DNA of 64,000 nucleotides from Jiangella gansuensis DSM 44835 (GCF_000515395.1 NZ_KI911782.1:783090-847089); one strand, 5' to 3'; counted from the stretch's first letter, positions 22,793 to 33,672 are shown. Program-made: numbers and translations. Notes: generated by a model not told the origin, from the sequence alone.

Positions 22793-23356
22793 ATGCTCGA
22801 CGCCGGTGCCGCGTTGCAGGCATCGCTGCGCCCGCTGACCAGGCCGGACGTCGAGCTCTTCGCGGGTGGCGGCAACTTCCTGCGCACCGGTGGGAGCTGG
22901 CTGTACACGGCCACGCGCGGGCCGGTTCCGGGCGCCGCCGACGTCACCCTCGAGCGGCGCTACTCAGGCGCCGCGCGGGTGAACCGCGGCGGCGTCATCC
23001 TGGTGCTGCTGGACCCGGCCTGGGTGTCCGGCCCCGACGCGCGGCCGGAGCTGGCCTGGTGCGCGGCGTATCAGGCGGATACCGGCCCGGTGGCGGTGCC
23101 GCTCGCGGAGTTCGAGGCGCGGGGGCCGGTGGTGGTGGGCCTGACGGCGCCGGAACTGGATCCCGCCGAGCTGCTGACCGCATCGGCCATCGCGCGGCTG
23201 CTCGGGGTGAGCCGCAGCACAGTGAACGCCTACCACTCGCGGGGTCAGATGCCGCCGCCCGTCGCGACGCTGAGCAGCCGGCTGCCGCTGTGGACCCGGC
23301 CGATCGTCGACCACTGGAGCGCGGGGCAGAGCCGCCGGCGCCGGCCACTGCGGTGA
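22793..23356 (+). CDS. HTH-containing protein of unknown function
   Basis: A 187-residue protein. The N-terminal about 125 residues form an unrecognised domain (GGNFLRTGGSWLYTATRGPVPGAADVTLERRYSGAARV, then RPELAWCAAYQADTGPVAVPL). The C-terminus has a MerR/excisionase-like HTH (LLTASAIARLLGVSRSTVNAYHSRGQMPPPV) followed by a wing-like PLWTRPIVDHW and a basic tail. It is divergent from the M23 gene and 184 bp upstream, same strand, of the large caspase-helicase fusion gene; it could regulate either. ATG 22793 is the first start in frame. Confidence 0.8.
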   Translation: MLDAGAALQASLRPLTRPDVELFAGGGNFLRTGGSWLYTATRGPVPGAADVTLERRYSGAARVNRGGVILVLLDPAWVSGPDARPELAWCAAYQADTGPVAVPLAEFEARGPVVVGLTAPELDPAELLTASAIARLLGVSRSTVNAYHSRGQMPPPVATLSSRLPLWTRPIVDHWSAGQSRRRRPLR

Positions 23357-23540: not shown

Positions 23541-26500
23541 ATGAGCGAGCTGTCGATCCATATGCGGACCGAACCGGTCCGTGAACGATTCGTTGCCGTT
23601 CGTCCACCGGTCACCGTGGTGCCGGAGCCACGCACGTCGCCGACACCGGTGACCGCCCGCCGGCCGCTGGTGCTCCCGGGCGCGGCCGACGCCCCAGCCG
23701 CCGCGGACCGCCGCAAGCTGCCCGCCGGCGACCGTGCCGCCCTCCTCATCGGCACCGCGGCGCACGACCACGCCGGTTACCCGCCGCTGCCCACCGCGGC
23801 CGCCGGGGTGCGGCACCTCGAGCAGGTCCTGGAGCGGCAGGACGTCGGCATGGCCGAGACCGTCCGGACGGTGACCGACGCCACCCGCGCGGAGATGATG
23901 CGCGCCATCGAGACGTTCCTCGACGAGCGCGAACTCAGCGACACCGTGCTTGTGTACCTGGCCGGCTACGCCGGGGTTTCGGTCCGCGACGGCAGACTGT
24001 TCCTGGTCGCCGCCGACACCGACCCCGACGACCTCGAGGGCACCGCCGTGGCCGCGGAGTTCCTGCGCCAACGGCTCCAGGAGTGCCGCGCCGCCAGCAA
24101 GGTCGTCCTGCTGGACCACTGCGCGGCCGATGACCGGGCCCGGCTGTCGGTGCACGGTCGCGGTGTCATGCCCGAACCCGCCGGGGTGTACGTCATCTCC
24201 GCGTCCCGGACCCTGCGCCCGGCCGCCGAGCTGGCCGACCCGGCGTCGCCGCTGGGCACCACCATGTTCACCGAGGAGATCGTCGAGGGGCTGCGCAGCG
24301 GGCGGGTCAAGTCCGGCCTGGGCCCGTGGGTCACCGCGGACGACCTCGCCGGCTACGTCGTCGACCGGCTGGAGCAGCGGGGCGTGCCCGAGGACCGGCT
24401 GCCGGCGACGTCGACCCTCGCGGTGTCCGGCAACCACGTCATCGCGCGGTCCGCGGTCCGGGCGCTCAGCCTGCTCGACGGGGACCGCGCGGCCGAGCGC
24501 CCGGTGCCGGCCCAGCCGGAGCCGGAGCCCCGTCGCGAGGAGCTCGCCGACCCCGGCTGGCGCGACCTGATCACGTACTACCGGGCCTGCCTGACCGAGG
24601 CCCGCCCGCCGGAGACGACGCCGTCGCGGGACGCGGAGTCGGTCGACTGGTTCCCGATGGCGTCCGGCGCCGAGGTGCTGCTCAGCGGGACCGAGGCGCT
24701 GGCGTCGGCGCCCGCGGGTGTCGACACGTTCGACTGGAAGGAACGTGACGTCTGGTACGGCTACCCGTTCGTCTCGCTGGCCGGCGGCGGCCGCCGGCAC
24801 TCGGCCAACCCGCTCGCGTCGCCTAGCGTGGCGGCGCTGCTGGTGCGCCGGGTCGAGGTCACCGTCGACGCGCGGGGCGCGGCGGCGCTGCGTCCCACCG
24901 GCCCCGTCGTGCCGCACGCCGGCGTCCTGCGGGCGTGCCTCGACGACCAGGAGGCGGCCAGCGTGCTGGCGGCCTGGCGGCAGAGCTGGAAGCCCGGCGA
25001 TCACGAGCAGATGCTGGCCGCGATCCGCCAGCTCATGCGCCGCCTCGGGCTCACCGAGCTGGAGCCGCTCGACCCCACCGCCCTCGCGGCCGACGACCTG
25101 CGCACCGCCACCCGCACCGGGGTGCACAACGCCGCCTGCGTGCTCTACGTCGAGTCCGACCGGCCGGCCGCGCTGGCCGTCAGCGCCGAGCTGGGCGAGC
25201 TCGCCGACCGCGCCGGCCAGGTGGCCGGTACGGCGCTGGAGTTCCTGGGCAAACCGGTCGGGCTGCGCCGCGTCGACGGACCGGCCCCCGTGCCCGTCCA
25301 GCCGGAGGAGCTGGACGAGAATCAGCAGGCAGTCCTGGCCGCCGCGATGACCCGGCCGCTGACCGTCGCCGCCGCGCCCCCCGGCACCGGCAAGGAGCGC
25401 CTGATCGTCGACGTCGTCGCCACCGCGGTCGCGGCGGGGCAGCGGGTCCTGGTCGCGTCACCCGACGAGGCCGTCCTGCAGGAGCTGACCGACCGGTGCG
25501 GCGCGCTGGCGCCCGGGCTGCTGATCAAAACCGGTGACGCCCAGGCGCGGGCGGAGGAGAAGCAGCTGGTGCGTGAGCTGCTGCGGGCGGCCAAGGACGA
25601 GCCGCGCGGCCGACGGCGCGAGAACGTCGAAGCCGACCTCGCCGCCGTCCGCGGGCAGCTGCGCGACTGGCGGGAGCTGCTGCGGGAGCGCAACGCCGTG
25701 GAGACCCGGCTGCGCAAGACGACGTCAGCGCGTGCGGCCGCCGCCACCCGGCTCGGGTTGACCCCCGGGCTGCTCGGGGCGGCGTGGCGCGAGGACGACG
25801 CGGCCATGCGGGACTGGATCGAGCGCGGCCGCGAGCTCACCGACACGAAGTTCCTCGGCGGGTTCCGGCGCCGCAGCCTCGTCGTCAGTTACCTGCGCGC
25901 GCTGGACGAGGGCGGCATCGACACCGGGAGGTTGCGTCAGCCACTGCTGGAGCCGGCGGCGTTCGACTCGCTGCTGCTGTTCGCCCGGGCCGAGCAGCGG
26001 CTGCGGCAGGACCGACGCCGCGTCGAACAGCTCGACGACGACCTCCTGGACGCTCAGGGTCAGGCGCTCACCGAACGGCTGCGCCAGCTCTCCGCCGAGC
26101 TGCTCGCCGTCGTCGTCGCCGAGCAGGCGGCCGGTGCCCAGGACGAGCTCACCGCGCGCCGGCGGGCGCTCGAGCCCGGTGGCAAGGACCGGCTCGCCAG
26201 CCAGCGACAGCTCATGGAGCACCTCGGCGGATGGGCCGTCACCGTCGAGGCGGCACAGCAGCTGGCGCTGGAGCCGGGCATGTTCGACCTGGTCGTGCTT
26301 GACGACGCGCACCGCTGCTCGGTCGCCGCCGCGATGCCGGTCATGTTCCGCGCCCGCCGCGCCCTCGTGATCGGGGATCCGCGCCGCCGGCAGCAGCCGC
26401 CGGCCCTCAGTGACCACCGGGTCCGCAAGGCGCGCGAGAACTCCGGCATCAGCGCGGCCTGGCTGGAAGAGCGGCGGGTGGCGTTCGGCGCGCACTCCGC

Positions 26501-27479
26501 GTACGACGCCGCATCCGGCAACGTCGACCAGCCGATCCTGCTCGACGTGCACAACGGCTCCCACCCGGGCATCGCGCGCATCGTCGACGAGCACTTCTAC
26601 GGTGCCCGGCTCACCGTCGTCACCGACGTCACCGGGCTGCGGCGGGCCAGCGACCCCGAGACCGGCGAGGCCACGCTGCTGCTGTGGGAGGACGTCAACG
26701 GCGCACCCGAGCGCGGGGCGAACGGCGGTTCGTGGCGCAACCAGGCGGAGCTCGACCGCGTCGTGTGGGCGGTCAACGAGCTGCGCGACCAGCTACCCGA
26801 GGGCGCCACCATCGCCGTCGCAACCCCCTTCCGGGCCCAGGCCGACGAGTTGCGTTCGCTGTTCCGGTTCGAGCCGGTGCGGGTGATCTCGGTCGACGAC
26901 GACGCGATGGCCGGGTGCGACGCAGTGGTGCTGTCGCTGGTCGCCGGTGAGGGGACGCCCGAGCAGACCGTGCGCTGGGTGCAGAGCCAGGCGGACCTGT
27001 GGAGCGCTGCGCTGGGCGCCGTGCGAGCACAGGTCGTCACCGTCGGTCAGCACGGGTTCTGGTCCCGGCAGGCCGGGCTGCCGGAATTGCTGGCACGGCT
27101 GTCGTCGGTGCGCTCGTTCCACGTCCGGCCGATCCCGCCGTCGGCCGTCGAGCCGGCCGTCGAGGTCGACCCGCTGGTGCAGGCACTGTGCGAGCGTCTG
27201 ACCGCTGCCGGGCACCCGGACGTGACACCGAACGCCCTGGTCGACGGGTACCGGTGCGACCTGCTGGTGCGGACACCGGCGGAGACCGTCGCGGTGCTGC
27301 TCGACCGCGGCTGGCCGGCCGGCGAGGACGCGGCGCGGCACGTGCGGCTGCTGCTGCGTCGCCGCCGGCTGTTGCGCGGATTGGCGCCCCGGCAGGGCGA
27401 TGCGCCGGTGACCCGGGTGCTGCGGGTGCCGACCTGGCAGGTGCGTTCCGGCGAGCCGATCCCGGGACTGGTGGACTGA
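23541..27479 (+). CDS. Caspase-like / SF1-helicase-like / possible nuclease-like fusion protein
   Basis: 1312 residues. Residues about 65-280 resemble a peptidase C14 (caspase) fold: DRAALLIGTAAHDHAG, then VLVYLAGYAG where caspases have SGHG (Tyr143 replaces the catalytic His) and VVLLDHCAADD (Cys194 retained). Residues about 590-1195 resemble an SF1 AAA_11/AAA_12 helicase: AAPPGTGKER (611-620; Glu follows the P-loop Lys), LVVLDDAHRC (Walker B), IGDPRRRQQPP (motif III), VATPFRAQ (motif IV), but the usual QGxE and SRA-R motifs V/VI read DAMAGCDAVVLS and AALGAVRAQ. The last about 100 residues (LVDGYRCDLLVR) resemble a PD-(D/E)XK end-domain without ExK. It follows an HTH gene and may belong to a conflict/defence system. 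Confidence 0.8.
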   Translation: MSELSIHMRTEPVRERFVAVRPPVTVVPEPRTSPTPVTARRPLVLPGAADAPAAADRRKLPAGDRAALLIGTAAHDHAGYPPLPTAAAGVRHLEQVLERQDVGMAETVRTVTDATRAEMMRAIETFLDERELSDTVLVYLAGYAGVSVRDGRLFLVAADTDPDDLEGTAVAAEFLRQRLQECRAASKVVLLDHCAADDRARLSVHGRGVMPEPAGVYVISASRTLRPAAELADPASPLGTTMFTEEIVEGLRSGRVKSGLGPWVTADDLAGYVVDRLEQRGVPEDRLPATSTLAVSGNHVIARSAVRALSLLDGDRAAERPVPAQPEPEPRREELADPGWRDLITYYRACLTEARPPETTPSRDAESVDWFPMASGAEVLLSGTEALASAPAGVDTFDWKERDVWYGYPFVSLAGGGRRHSANPLASPSVAALLVRRVEVTVDARGAAALRPTGPVVPHAGVLRACLDDQEAASVLAAWRQSWKPGDHEQMLAAIRQLMRRLGLTELEPLDPTALAADDLRTATRTGVHNAACVLYVESDRPAALAVSAELGELADRAGQVAGTALEFLGKPVGLRRVDGPAPVPVQPEELDENQQAVLAAAMTRPLTVAAAPPGTGKERLIVDVVATAVAAGQRVLVASPDEAVLQELTDRCGALAPGLLIKTGDAQARAEEKQLVRELLRAAKDEPRGRRRENVEADLAAVRGQLRDWRELLRERNAVETRLRKTTSARAAAATRLGLTPGLLGAAWREDDAAMRDWIERGRELTDTKFLGGFRRRSLVVSYLRALDEGGIDTGRLRQPLLEPAAFDSLLLFARAEQRLRQDRRRVEQLDDDLLDAQGQALTERLRQLSAELLAVVVAEQAAGAQDELTARRRALEPGGKDRLASQRQLMEHLGGWAVTVEAAQQLALEPGMFDLVVLDDAHRCSVAAAMPVMFRARRALVIGDPRRRQQPPALSDHRVRKARENSGISAAWLEERRVAFGAHSAYDAASGNVDQPILLDVHNGSHPGIARIVDEHFYGARLTVVTDVTGLRRASDPETGEATLLLWEDVNGAPERGANGGSWRNQAELDRVVWAVNELRDQLPEGATIAVATPFRAQADELRSLFRFEPVRVISVDDDAMAGCDAVVLSLVAGEGTPEQTVRWVQSQADLWSAALGAVRAQVVTVGQHGFWSRQAGLPELLARLSSVRSFHVRPIPPSAVEPAVEVDPLVQALCERLTAAGHPDVTPNALVDGYRCDLLVRTPAETVAVLLDRGWPAGEDAARHVRLLLRRRRLLRGLAPRQGDAPVTRVLRVPTWQVRSGEPIPGLVD

Positions 27480-27564: not shown

Positions 27565-28440
27565 ATGCGCATCCACCGCCTCGCCGCCCCCGCGCTTCTG
27601 GCAACCTTGGCCCTGATGGCAGGAGCAACGGCGCCCGCGGCCTCGGCCGACGCTGGCCGGTCCGCCCAGGCCGAACCGTCGGCACGGGACCGGCCGCTCA
27701 CCGTCATGAGCTTCAACATCCACCACGGGGTCGGCACCGACGGCCTGCTCGACCTGCAGAGGGTCGCCGACGTCGTCAAGACCGAGGGGGTCGACGTCGT
27801 CGGTCTGCAAGAGGTCGACCGGCACTGGGGTGAGCGCAGTGACTTCGTCGACCAGGCCGCCTGGCTCGCCGACGAACTGGACATGCACGTCGTCTACGGC
27901 GCCAACCTCGACCAGGACCCACTCCAGCCAGGCCAGCCGCGACGCCAGTACGGCACCGCGATCCTCAGCGAACGACCCATCCGCGAGTGGGACAACACCT
28001 TCCTGCCCAGGTACGAGGGCCACGAGCAGCGCGGCCTGCTGCGCGCGCGCATCAACGTCCGCGGGGTCTGGGTGACGGTCTTCAACACGCACCTGCAGCA
28101 CAACGACGCCAACGAGCGGCTGGAGCAGGTGGCCGCCATCGAGGAGCTGATGGGTACGCCGGACGAGTCGGTCGTGCTGGTCGGCGACCTCAACGCGCGG
28201 CCGGATGCACCGGAGATCCGGGAGCTGATGGACGACCTCGTCGACACCTGGGAGGCCGCCGGCGTCGGCGACGGCGCCACCTATCCGGCCGAGGACCCCA
28301 ACGCCCGCATTGACTACGTGCTGACCTCCGGCGACGTCATCACCCGCACGGCCGCAGTGGTGACCACGGACGCCTCCGACCACCTGCCGGTCAAGGCGGA
28401 CGTCCTGCTGCCCGGTTCGAATGTCGGCCTCGGCAACTGA
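27565..28440 (+). CDS. Secreted endonuclease/exonuclease/phosphatase-family hydrolase
   Basis: A 291-residue EEP protein. It has a Sec signal peptide (MRIHRLAAPALLATLALMAGATAPAASA) and then the metal-phosphoesterase core: MSFNIHHGVG (Asn), GLQEVDRHWG (Glu), FNTHLQHND (His), VLVGDLNARPD (Asp and Asn), IDYVLTSG (Asp) and TTDASDHLPV (terminal Asp-His). All catalytic residues of the fold are present. The substrate could be a phosphodiester, sphingomyelin/phospholipid or extracellular nucleic acid. ATG 27565 follows GAGAGGA by 7 nt. Confidence 0.92.
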   Translation: MRIHRLAAPALLATLALMAGATAPAASADAGRSAQAEPSARDRPLTVMSFNIHHGVGTDGLLDLQRVADVVKTEGVDVVGLQEVDRHWGERSDFVDQAAWLADELDMHVVYGANLDQDPLQPGQPRRQYGTAILSERPIREWDNTFLPRYEGHEQRGLLRARINVRGVWVTVFNTHLQHNDANERLEQVAAIEELMGTPDESVVLVGDLNARPDAPEIRELMDDLVDTWEAAGVGDGATYPAEDPNARIDYVLTSGDVITRTAAVVTTDASDHLPVKADVLLPGSNVGLGN

Positions 28441-32616: not shown

Positions 32617-32645
32617 TGTATCCGGCCATCACGTTGGTGGCAGGC
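32617..32645 (+). repeat. Left terminal inverted repeat of the IS481 element
   Basis: Begins TGTATCCGGCCA; pairs with the right end (33673-33701, inverted TGTACCCGGCCA) with about 6 mismatches in 29. Immediately preceded by the target duplication GCTAGG. Confidence 0.85.
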
Positions 32646-33594
32646 GGCTGATTGGTGGGAGGCCGCCGAGTGCGCTGTGGCGTCGTCGAGTGTTGTAGTA
32701 CTCGATCCAGGGGTCAAGAGCCGCGGCGCGTTCGGTGTTGCTGGTGAAGACCTGCCGGTAGGCCCACTCGGTCTGCAGGGTGCGGTTGAACCGTTCGACC
32801 TTGCCGTTCTGCCACGGGCAGTGCGCCTTGATGAACCTCTGCCCGATGTCCAGCTCCTTGCAGACCTGGCGCAGCGAGTACCGGTATGCCCAGGCGTTGT
32901 CGGTGATCAGGCGTTCGATCCGGGGGATGCCGTGTGCGGCGAAGTAGCCGGCTGCCCGTGCGAGGAAGGCCGCGCAGGTCGGGCCCTTCTCGTCGGGCAG
33001 GATCTCTGAGTAGGCCAGCCGGGAGTGGTCATCGACGAGTGAGTGCACGTAGTCGAACCCGACCCTGGTCGTGCGGTTGCGGGTGGCTTCGCGGTTCTCC
33101 CGGCCGTGGGCGCGCCAGCCGCCGCCGTCGGGGATCTTGCCGATCTTCTTCACGTCCATGTGGACCAGCTCGCCCGGGGCGTCGCGCTCGTAACGCACCG
33201 TCGTGGTCTTCGACGCCCGGATCACCTCACCCGTGAGCGGGTCGCACTCGCGCAGGTAGGGCACGTCGTGGCGGCGCAGGATCCGCGACACCGTCCGCGC
33301 CGGCACCCCCAGCTCGGGACCGATCCAGTCCTGCCCGCGGCGTTCGCGCTGCCGAAGGTCGATGACCTGCTGTTCGATCGCCTCGCTGGTCCGGCGCGGA
33401 GACGAATGTGGACGCGAGGAGCGGTCGTGCAGGCCGGCCACGCCCTCGGCGGCGTAACGATCCAGCCAGGACTTCACACACTTGCGGGAGATGCCCATCG
33501 CCTTGGCGATGTGCGCCTGCGCCCAACCGGCGCGGTGACGCTCAACGATCAACAGCCGGCCCTGGAACGTGGTGCGGGCGTTACGGTGAGACAC
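32629..33594 (-). CDS. IS481-family transposase
   Basis: 321 residues from GTG 33594. N-terminal HTH for end binding (IVERHRAGWAQAHIAKAMGISRKCVKSWLDRYAAEG), a second HTH segment (GPELGVPARTVSRILRRH), then an RNase-H-like DDE core: PGELVHMDVKKIGK (Asp), LITDNAWAYR (Asp) and CPWQNGKVERFNRTLQTEW (Glu), followed by WIEYYNTRRRHSALGGLPP, the typical IS481/IS3-like ending. All three catalytic acids are present and no frame interruption is seen, so the element is probably active. Confidence 0.95.
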   Translation of the reverse strand: MSHRNARTTFQGRLLIVERHRAGWAQAHIAKAMGISRKCVKSWLDRYAAEGVAGLHDRSSRPHSSPRRTSEAIEQQVIDLRQRERRGQDWIGPELGVPARTVSRILRRHDVPYLRECDPLTGEVIRASKTTTVRYERDAPGELVHMDVKKIGKIPDGGGWRAHGRENREATRNRTTRVGFDYVHSLVDDHSRLAYSEILPDEKGPTCAAFLARAAGYFAAHGIPRIERLITDNAWAYRYSLRQVCKELDIGQRFIKAHCPWQNGKVERFNRTLQTEWAYRQVFTSNTERAAALDPWIEYYNTRRRHSALGGLPPISRLPPT

Positions 33595-33672
33595 GAGAGC
33601 CCTCCGGATGGGTCGTGCAGCCTTCGACAAGCCACACCCCACCCGGGGGCTCTCACCTGTTCAACCCGACAC

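Follow-up and report, generated by a model that had tools for sequence, protein, structure and literature searches.

The 64,000-nucleotide stretch of Jiangella gansuensis DSM 44835 analysed here (the window; all coordinates are window positions) contains a gene whose 1312-residue product combines a caspase of the EACC1-associated type, a UPF1/IGHMBP2-like superfamily 1 (SF1) helicase and a VSR-like nuclease fold (Table 1). Its single frame is open on the + strand over positions 23541-27479, as had been proposed, and the triple caspase-like/helicase-like/nuclease-like composition read from the sequence in the original prediction was borne out by Pfam, NCBIfam and PDB matches, together with the fold of the C-terminal end. 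The NCBIfam model NF047832 ('caspase, EACC1-associated type') matched residues 66-279 (3.9e-38) with 131-137 bits, just below its curated cut-off of 140 bits, a value exceeded in 10 of the 12 Jiangella genomes; the Pfam C14 caspase model matched residues 65-254 (2.8e-7). Pfam domains AAA_11 (2.3e-8) and AAA_12 (3.9e-13) span residues 591-1137, and the top matches of a PDB sequence search were IGHMBP2 (3.2e-11), senataxin and the Sen1 helicases, the same set being returned by a search with the structure model. Models were built from alignments of 6-7 sequences and had a mean predicted local distance difference test score (pLDDT) of 45.6 and 41.5; trust was therefore limited to the model of the C-terminal domain. 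Foldseek ranked the MALT1 paracaspase first for the caspase model (7.9e-7), in agreement with a caspase-like fold, but the low confidence of that model gives the match supporting weight only.

Table 1. Coordinates of the caspase-helicase gene, its domains and key residues, and its neighbours
Feature	Position	Strand	Remarks
Pseudo-caspase/pseudo-helicase/nuclease-like gene (predicted)	23541..27479	+	Single open frame, 1312 aa
Caspase-like domain, EACC1-associated type, residues 61-300	23721..24440	+	NF047832, Pfam C14, Foldseek
Y143, at the catalytic His position	23967..23969	+	His in 8/8 intact relatives, Tyr in 13/13 Jiangellaceae
C194, nucleophile position retained	24120..24122	+	Kept in 12/13 Jiangellaceae, lost in L014
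Middle domain, residues 336-585	24546..25295	+	Conserved family-wide in the alignment; no Pfam match
Walker A PPGTGKE, residues 613-619	25377..25397	+	GTGKS in intact relatives
Walker B/motif II DDAH	26301..26312	+	DEAS in intact relatives
Motif IV DVHNGSHP	26544..26567	+	DEHYRCHP in intact relatives; Arg lost in 14/14
Motif V region, FQGGERD signature gone	26886..26924	+	FQGGERD present in relatives
Motif VI region LWSAALGAVRA	26997..27029	+	LWNVAITRARS in one intact relative
VSR-like (PD-(D/E)XK) nuclease-fold domain, residues 1205-1312	27153..27476	+	Fold model and structural alignment
D1240	27258..27260	+	Asp in 38/38 family members
D1255	27303..27305	+	Asp in 38/38; the ExK Glu site lies two residues before
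Helix-turn-helix (HTH) gene, MerR-like	22793..23356	+	Comes after a divergent M23 gene
Secreted endonuclease/exonuclease/phosphatase (EEP) gene	27565..28440	+	85 bp downstream; Pfam 2.8e-29; next to the homologue at every Jiangellaceae locus examined

Homologues were sought in 98 genomes of the class and in targeted families. Each of the 12 Jiangella genomes has one, divided over two contigs in G002, and so do both genomes of one sister genus, with 59-82% identity along the full length; no homologue was present in eight genomes spanning four other genera of Jiangellaceae. Eight distant full-length relatives from other actinobacterial families carry the same helicase and VSR-like module on their caspase and retain every protease and helicase motif: SGHG or TGHG and LDCC in the caspase, GTGKS in the P-loop, DEASQ in motif II, FQG(G/S) with ERD, ECD or QRD in motif V, and NVA(I/V)TRA(R/K) in motif VI. 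These intact relatives are patchily distributed and their flanks are not conserved. Two intact-type copies appeared damaged, that of L115 (G223:C11) being broken across several frames and that of L087/L088 (G237:C241) divided over two.

Set against these relatives, the His-Cys dyad of EACC1 caspases is broken in the window protein. Residue-level alignment placed Y143 at the histidine site with C194 retained, both as had been claimed, and the tyrosine proved common to all the Jiangellaceae copies (counts for the caspase refer to 13 sequences, the fourteenth having no such part). The substitution itself is already known in bacterial caspase homologues, an intact dyad being missing in 16% of prokaryotic metacaspases, with tyrosine as the commonest substitute for the histidine (PMC3501461). 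The window gene shares the His to Tyr change with those dyad-lacking metacaspases but differs from them in that the change has become a fixed trait of a core gene and goes together with the loss of a second enzyme within one polypeptide.

That second enzyme shares the AAA_11/AAA_12 core of the SF1B UPF1/IGHMBP2 helicases, but unlike them has altered motifs I, II, IV, V and VI. A P-loop reading GTGKE instead of GTGKT/S, a motif V without QGxE and a motif VI without its arginine had been noted before, and all three were found as described, with A1160 at the arginine site of motif VI; the changes in motif II (DDAH) and motif IV (G1006) are additional to these. Loss of the P-loop serine is common to all 14 Jiangellaceae copies, but GTGKE as such is not conserved, the replacement being D, E, G or Q; the P-loop lysine is alanine in 2/14. 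The motif II glutamate is aspartate in 13 copies, the motif IV arginine is glycine in 14/14 and the motif V glutamine is missing in 14/14, yet the motif VI arginine is retained in 12 of the 14 members of the clade. The nucleic-acid contacts of motif Ia are also altered, from STNN to ADD/PDE. Among the 175 alignment columns invariant across the eight intact relatives, 98 are kept in Jiangellaceae and 77 are changed or variable, and the latter take in the caspase dyad and the helicase motifs. The ATPase of the window protein is thus predicted to be dead.

The C-terminal domain gave a more reliable model (pLDDT mostly 64-83, with one stretch at 52), and VIA-align matched it over 83-89 residues to the nucleases I-Bth0305I (Z 9.0) and NGO0050 (Z 8.6), which upheld the nuclease-like fold proposed for this end; the sequence match to MTES_1575 had an E-value of 0.041, far short of the cut-off. 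Residues 1210-1312 therefore share the fold of the VSR-like/MTES_1575/EDxHD nucleases and retain their second-strand aspartate, but unlike them have no ExK glutamate, which is absent throughout the caspase-helicase family. Its site is occupied by L, I, V, F or H in all 38 members, intact ones included (leucine in the window protein). The original prediction was correct in that ExK is missing; its absence cannot be taken as degeneration, an explanation ruled out by the same gap in the intact relatives, and is ancestral to the family because a non-Glu residue stands there in every member. D1240 and D1255 are the sole active-site-like residues surviving in all 38, and W1299 is likewise tryptophan in 38/38.

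Selection on the gene was estimated from the ratio of non-synonymous to synonymous substitution rates (dN/dS). In close Jiangella pairs it was 0.16-0.25 for the whole gene and 0.07-0.20 for the caspase domain; it lay around 0.2 in most domains, rose to 0.45 in more distant pairs, and was lax in the linker (residues 301-335). The clade in which the changes to the protease and helicase motifs have become fixed is thus under purifying selection.

A second group of dead copies was found, comprising 16 proteins, all from the family designated f17. The P-loop lysine is gone in 16/16 and the whole caspase domain in 10/16, and many of the genes are flanked by those of a PucR regulator and a Nei-type glycosylase. 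In a family tree built with the motif columns removed, the Jiangellaceae dead clade was sister to the intact L065 (clade support 100/100), while the f17 dead clade was sister to the intact L022/L058/L059/L060 (100/100). Constraining all dead copies to a single origin made the tree 108 log-likelihood units worse (p-AU 8e-91, approximately unbiased test), and a single disarming event was rejected; the tree thus indicates two independent disarmings, one in Jiangellaceae and one in f17. Among the f17 genomes, 5/17 of those with a dead gene and 1/104 of those without also had active-group copies or remnants of them (Fisher p 1.7e-4); for intact copies alone the figures were 3/17 and 1/104 (p 0.009), kinship being ignored in both comparisons. 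Active-motif and dead copies share one genome in G134 (L101, L108), G057 (L102, L105) and G183 (L100, L107). Several of the dead f17 copies are closely preceded by a small gene that by eye looks roadblock-like, with no convincing Pfam match (L090:11245-11718, L091:10414-10953).

The kinship to conflict systems that had been suspected is supported by the NF047832 match and by the surroundings of the closest intact relative, L065 (G224), where a curated EACC1 gene (PF19953, above cut-off) ends ∼80 bp upstream. A small EACC1-like gene lies directly upstream of several other intact copies, a tentative assignment (profile comparison probability 81, E 1.2e-5); neither Pfam nor NCBIfam recognised such upstream genes, where tested, as EACC1. 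In three Jiangella genomes (G000, G001, G008) PF19953 gave nothing above background (best 0.028-0.23), unrelated control genomes also matching at this threshold and none above cut-off. Each of the 12 Jiangella genomes has one EACC1-type caspase gene, and no second one was found in any of them.

In the Jiangellaceae examined the gene occupies a constant locus, flanked by an M23 peptidase gene and by the EEP gene, whose Jiangella product carries an apparent signal peptide. A clean empty site was not found in the other genera of the family, and the EEP gene of the g5 genomes stands in another context, without the caspase-like gene. The HTH gene reported upstream is present, but not as a conserved partner: in three of the five congener loci with long flanks (L001, L002, L004) it lies 3-7 kb from the homologue. 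It belongs with the M23 gene, and a role as operon partner was ruled out. Its conservation is well below that of the genes around it (∼50% identity, against 66-82% for the caspase-like gene), and its N-terminal part is unassigned. Variable cargo was seen by eye between the two genes (L001:1279-7807, L004:2861-7815), reading as repressor-like, glycosidase-like and large secreted-protein-like. The idea of a defence locus with an HTH neighbour did not survive this comparison. Instead of a mobile defence island, the gene was found in 12/12 Jiangella genomes at a fixed chromosomal site with constant neighbours, ordinary flanking genes and ordinary cargo, and a defence island was ruled out; the viral contigs searched contained no relative. 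The Mokosh protein MkoA (PADLOC) was also rejected as an identity for the gene product, the match being confined to the helicase core (residues 589-1118, profile positions 614-1023 of 1112).

These results are, on balance, best read as domestication: a caspase-helicase effector of the EACC1 type would have become a core protein that only binds, an outcome we hold to be somewhat probable. The ancestor would have been an active EACC1-type effector whose caspase, once activated, would release or switch the helicase and nuclease-like module. The EACC1 partner would have been lost, and a fixed chromosomal site gained, in the ancestor of Jiangella and its sister genus; the protease and ATPase chemistry would have disappeared there while the body of the protein was held by purifying selection. 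The present protein would act by binding and not by catalysis, most likely as a constitutive decoy or receptor for the protein or nucleic-acid partners of active effectors, or by curbing related active enzymes. Action by binding is to be expected because two enzymes appear dead and the body is conserved, and a decoy or receptor is the first choice in Jiangella because no active copy is resident there. The ancestry, the motif losses, their conservation and the two separate events are shown by sequence comparison; dead catalysis in the protease and helicase is well supported, the proteins presumably having no such activity, and the binding role and its kind (decoy, receptor or dominant-negative inhibitor) are suggested by these. 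The 'regulatory pseudoenzyme' of the original prediction agrees with the fixation of the altered motifs throughout a clade on which purifying selection acts, and with the existence of canonical relatives. Several points weigh against domestication into a binding protein. The binding role is arrived at by elimination; C194, the Walker A lysine (12/14) and one motif VI arginine (12/14) are mostly kept, and nucleotide binding is possible; D1240 and D1255 are invariant everywhere, and the nuclease-like domain may still act; and the STNN to ADD/PDE change in motif Ia speaks against a simple nucleic-acid receptor.

The association of both forms in f17, including their coexistence within the three genomes named above, would fit a dominant-negative immunity in which the dead copy joins and blocks active EACC1-caspase-helicase assemblies, the cell thereby tolerating or resisting incoming active copies. 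However, that statistic ignores kinship, none of the 12 Jiangella genomes searched has an active copy, a wide sequence gap separates the dead from the active clades, so that specific heteromers are not obvious, and most of the second dead clade has no caspase domain left; we regard this immunity as unlikely. Recruitment of the scaffold to a housekeeping task in DNA repair or nucleotide metabolism seems more doubtful still. The core distribution and the stable neighbours with nucleic-acid functions, EEP in Jiangella and the Nei-type glycosylase in f17, argue for it, but the neighbours differ between the two lineages, the apparent signal peptide of EEP points to action outside the cell, and EEP occurs without the caspase-like gene in the g5 genomes.

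About as doubtful as the housekeeping task is a protein disarmed twice whose divergent VSR-like domain, with its two universally conserved aspartates, would have remained a nuclease, active or metal-switched, for which the dead parts would be no more than a sensor scaffold. A slightly lower probability is given to an enzyme with changed chemistry, be it a Tyr/Cys peptidase or a D1240/D1255 nuclease. The conservation of C194 (12/13) and of both aspartates (38/38) and the supported VSR-like fold are in its favour; on the other side, tyrosine is just the residue that most often replaces the histidine in dyad-lacking prokaryotic metacaspases (PMC3501461), the cysteine is lost in L014, and the ExK glutamate is found in no member, intact ones included. 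The 'divergent class with different chemistry' considered earlier is thus possible for the nuclease-like end and unlikely for the protease and helicase. As for a decaying remnant or a sequencing artefact, the motif losses and the visibly broken intact-type copy in G223 could be cited, but the frame is open, the same substitutions recur in 14 independent genomes and dN/dS is ∼0.2; this explanation is refuted and has next to no probability.

The domesticated, binding-only protein resembles the two-gene EACC1-caspase system (System 4) in having an N-terminal EACC1-type caspase and a large variable C-terminal module, as that system is described in the relevant passage of Kaur et al. 2020 (PMC7159879). 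Compared with that description, the window gene has no EACC1 partner, a broken dyad and a predictedly dead helicase, and it occupies a fixed locus common to the whole genus where the described systems are patchy; an SF1 helicase with a VSR-like module is not among the C-terminal domains listed in that passage. Some members of related conflict systems are likewise inactive, according to the same passage, and in the parts of PMC7159879 and PMC8195603 that deal with inactive enzymes in conflict systems these are proposed to be decoys, dominant-negative regulators or receptors. The decoy or receptor role suggested here parallels that proposed there for inactive STAND NTPases and effectors; those belong to variable multi-gene systems, unlike the window gene, which is a single core gene without a system. 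No published work on dead caspase-helicase proteins was found in the open-access literature, and as far as that literature goes, it is new that an entire caspase-helicase effector should have been domesticated, apparently twice and independently, as a dead core gene. Conflict effectors are usually viewed as accessory weapons, quickly gained and lost, whereas in the present case two separate lineages seem to have disarmed one class and retained it as a core gene while close active relatives persist, in three genomes beside the dead copy. This offers a case for testing the evolution of bacterial weapons into regulators, comparable to the animal pseudo-caspases, and a clean setting for asking whether dead copies are decoys, receptors or antidotes.

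Elsewhere in the window, an open reading frame on the - strand (32629-33642) reads by eye like an insertion sequence (IS)-type transposase with an integrase core.

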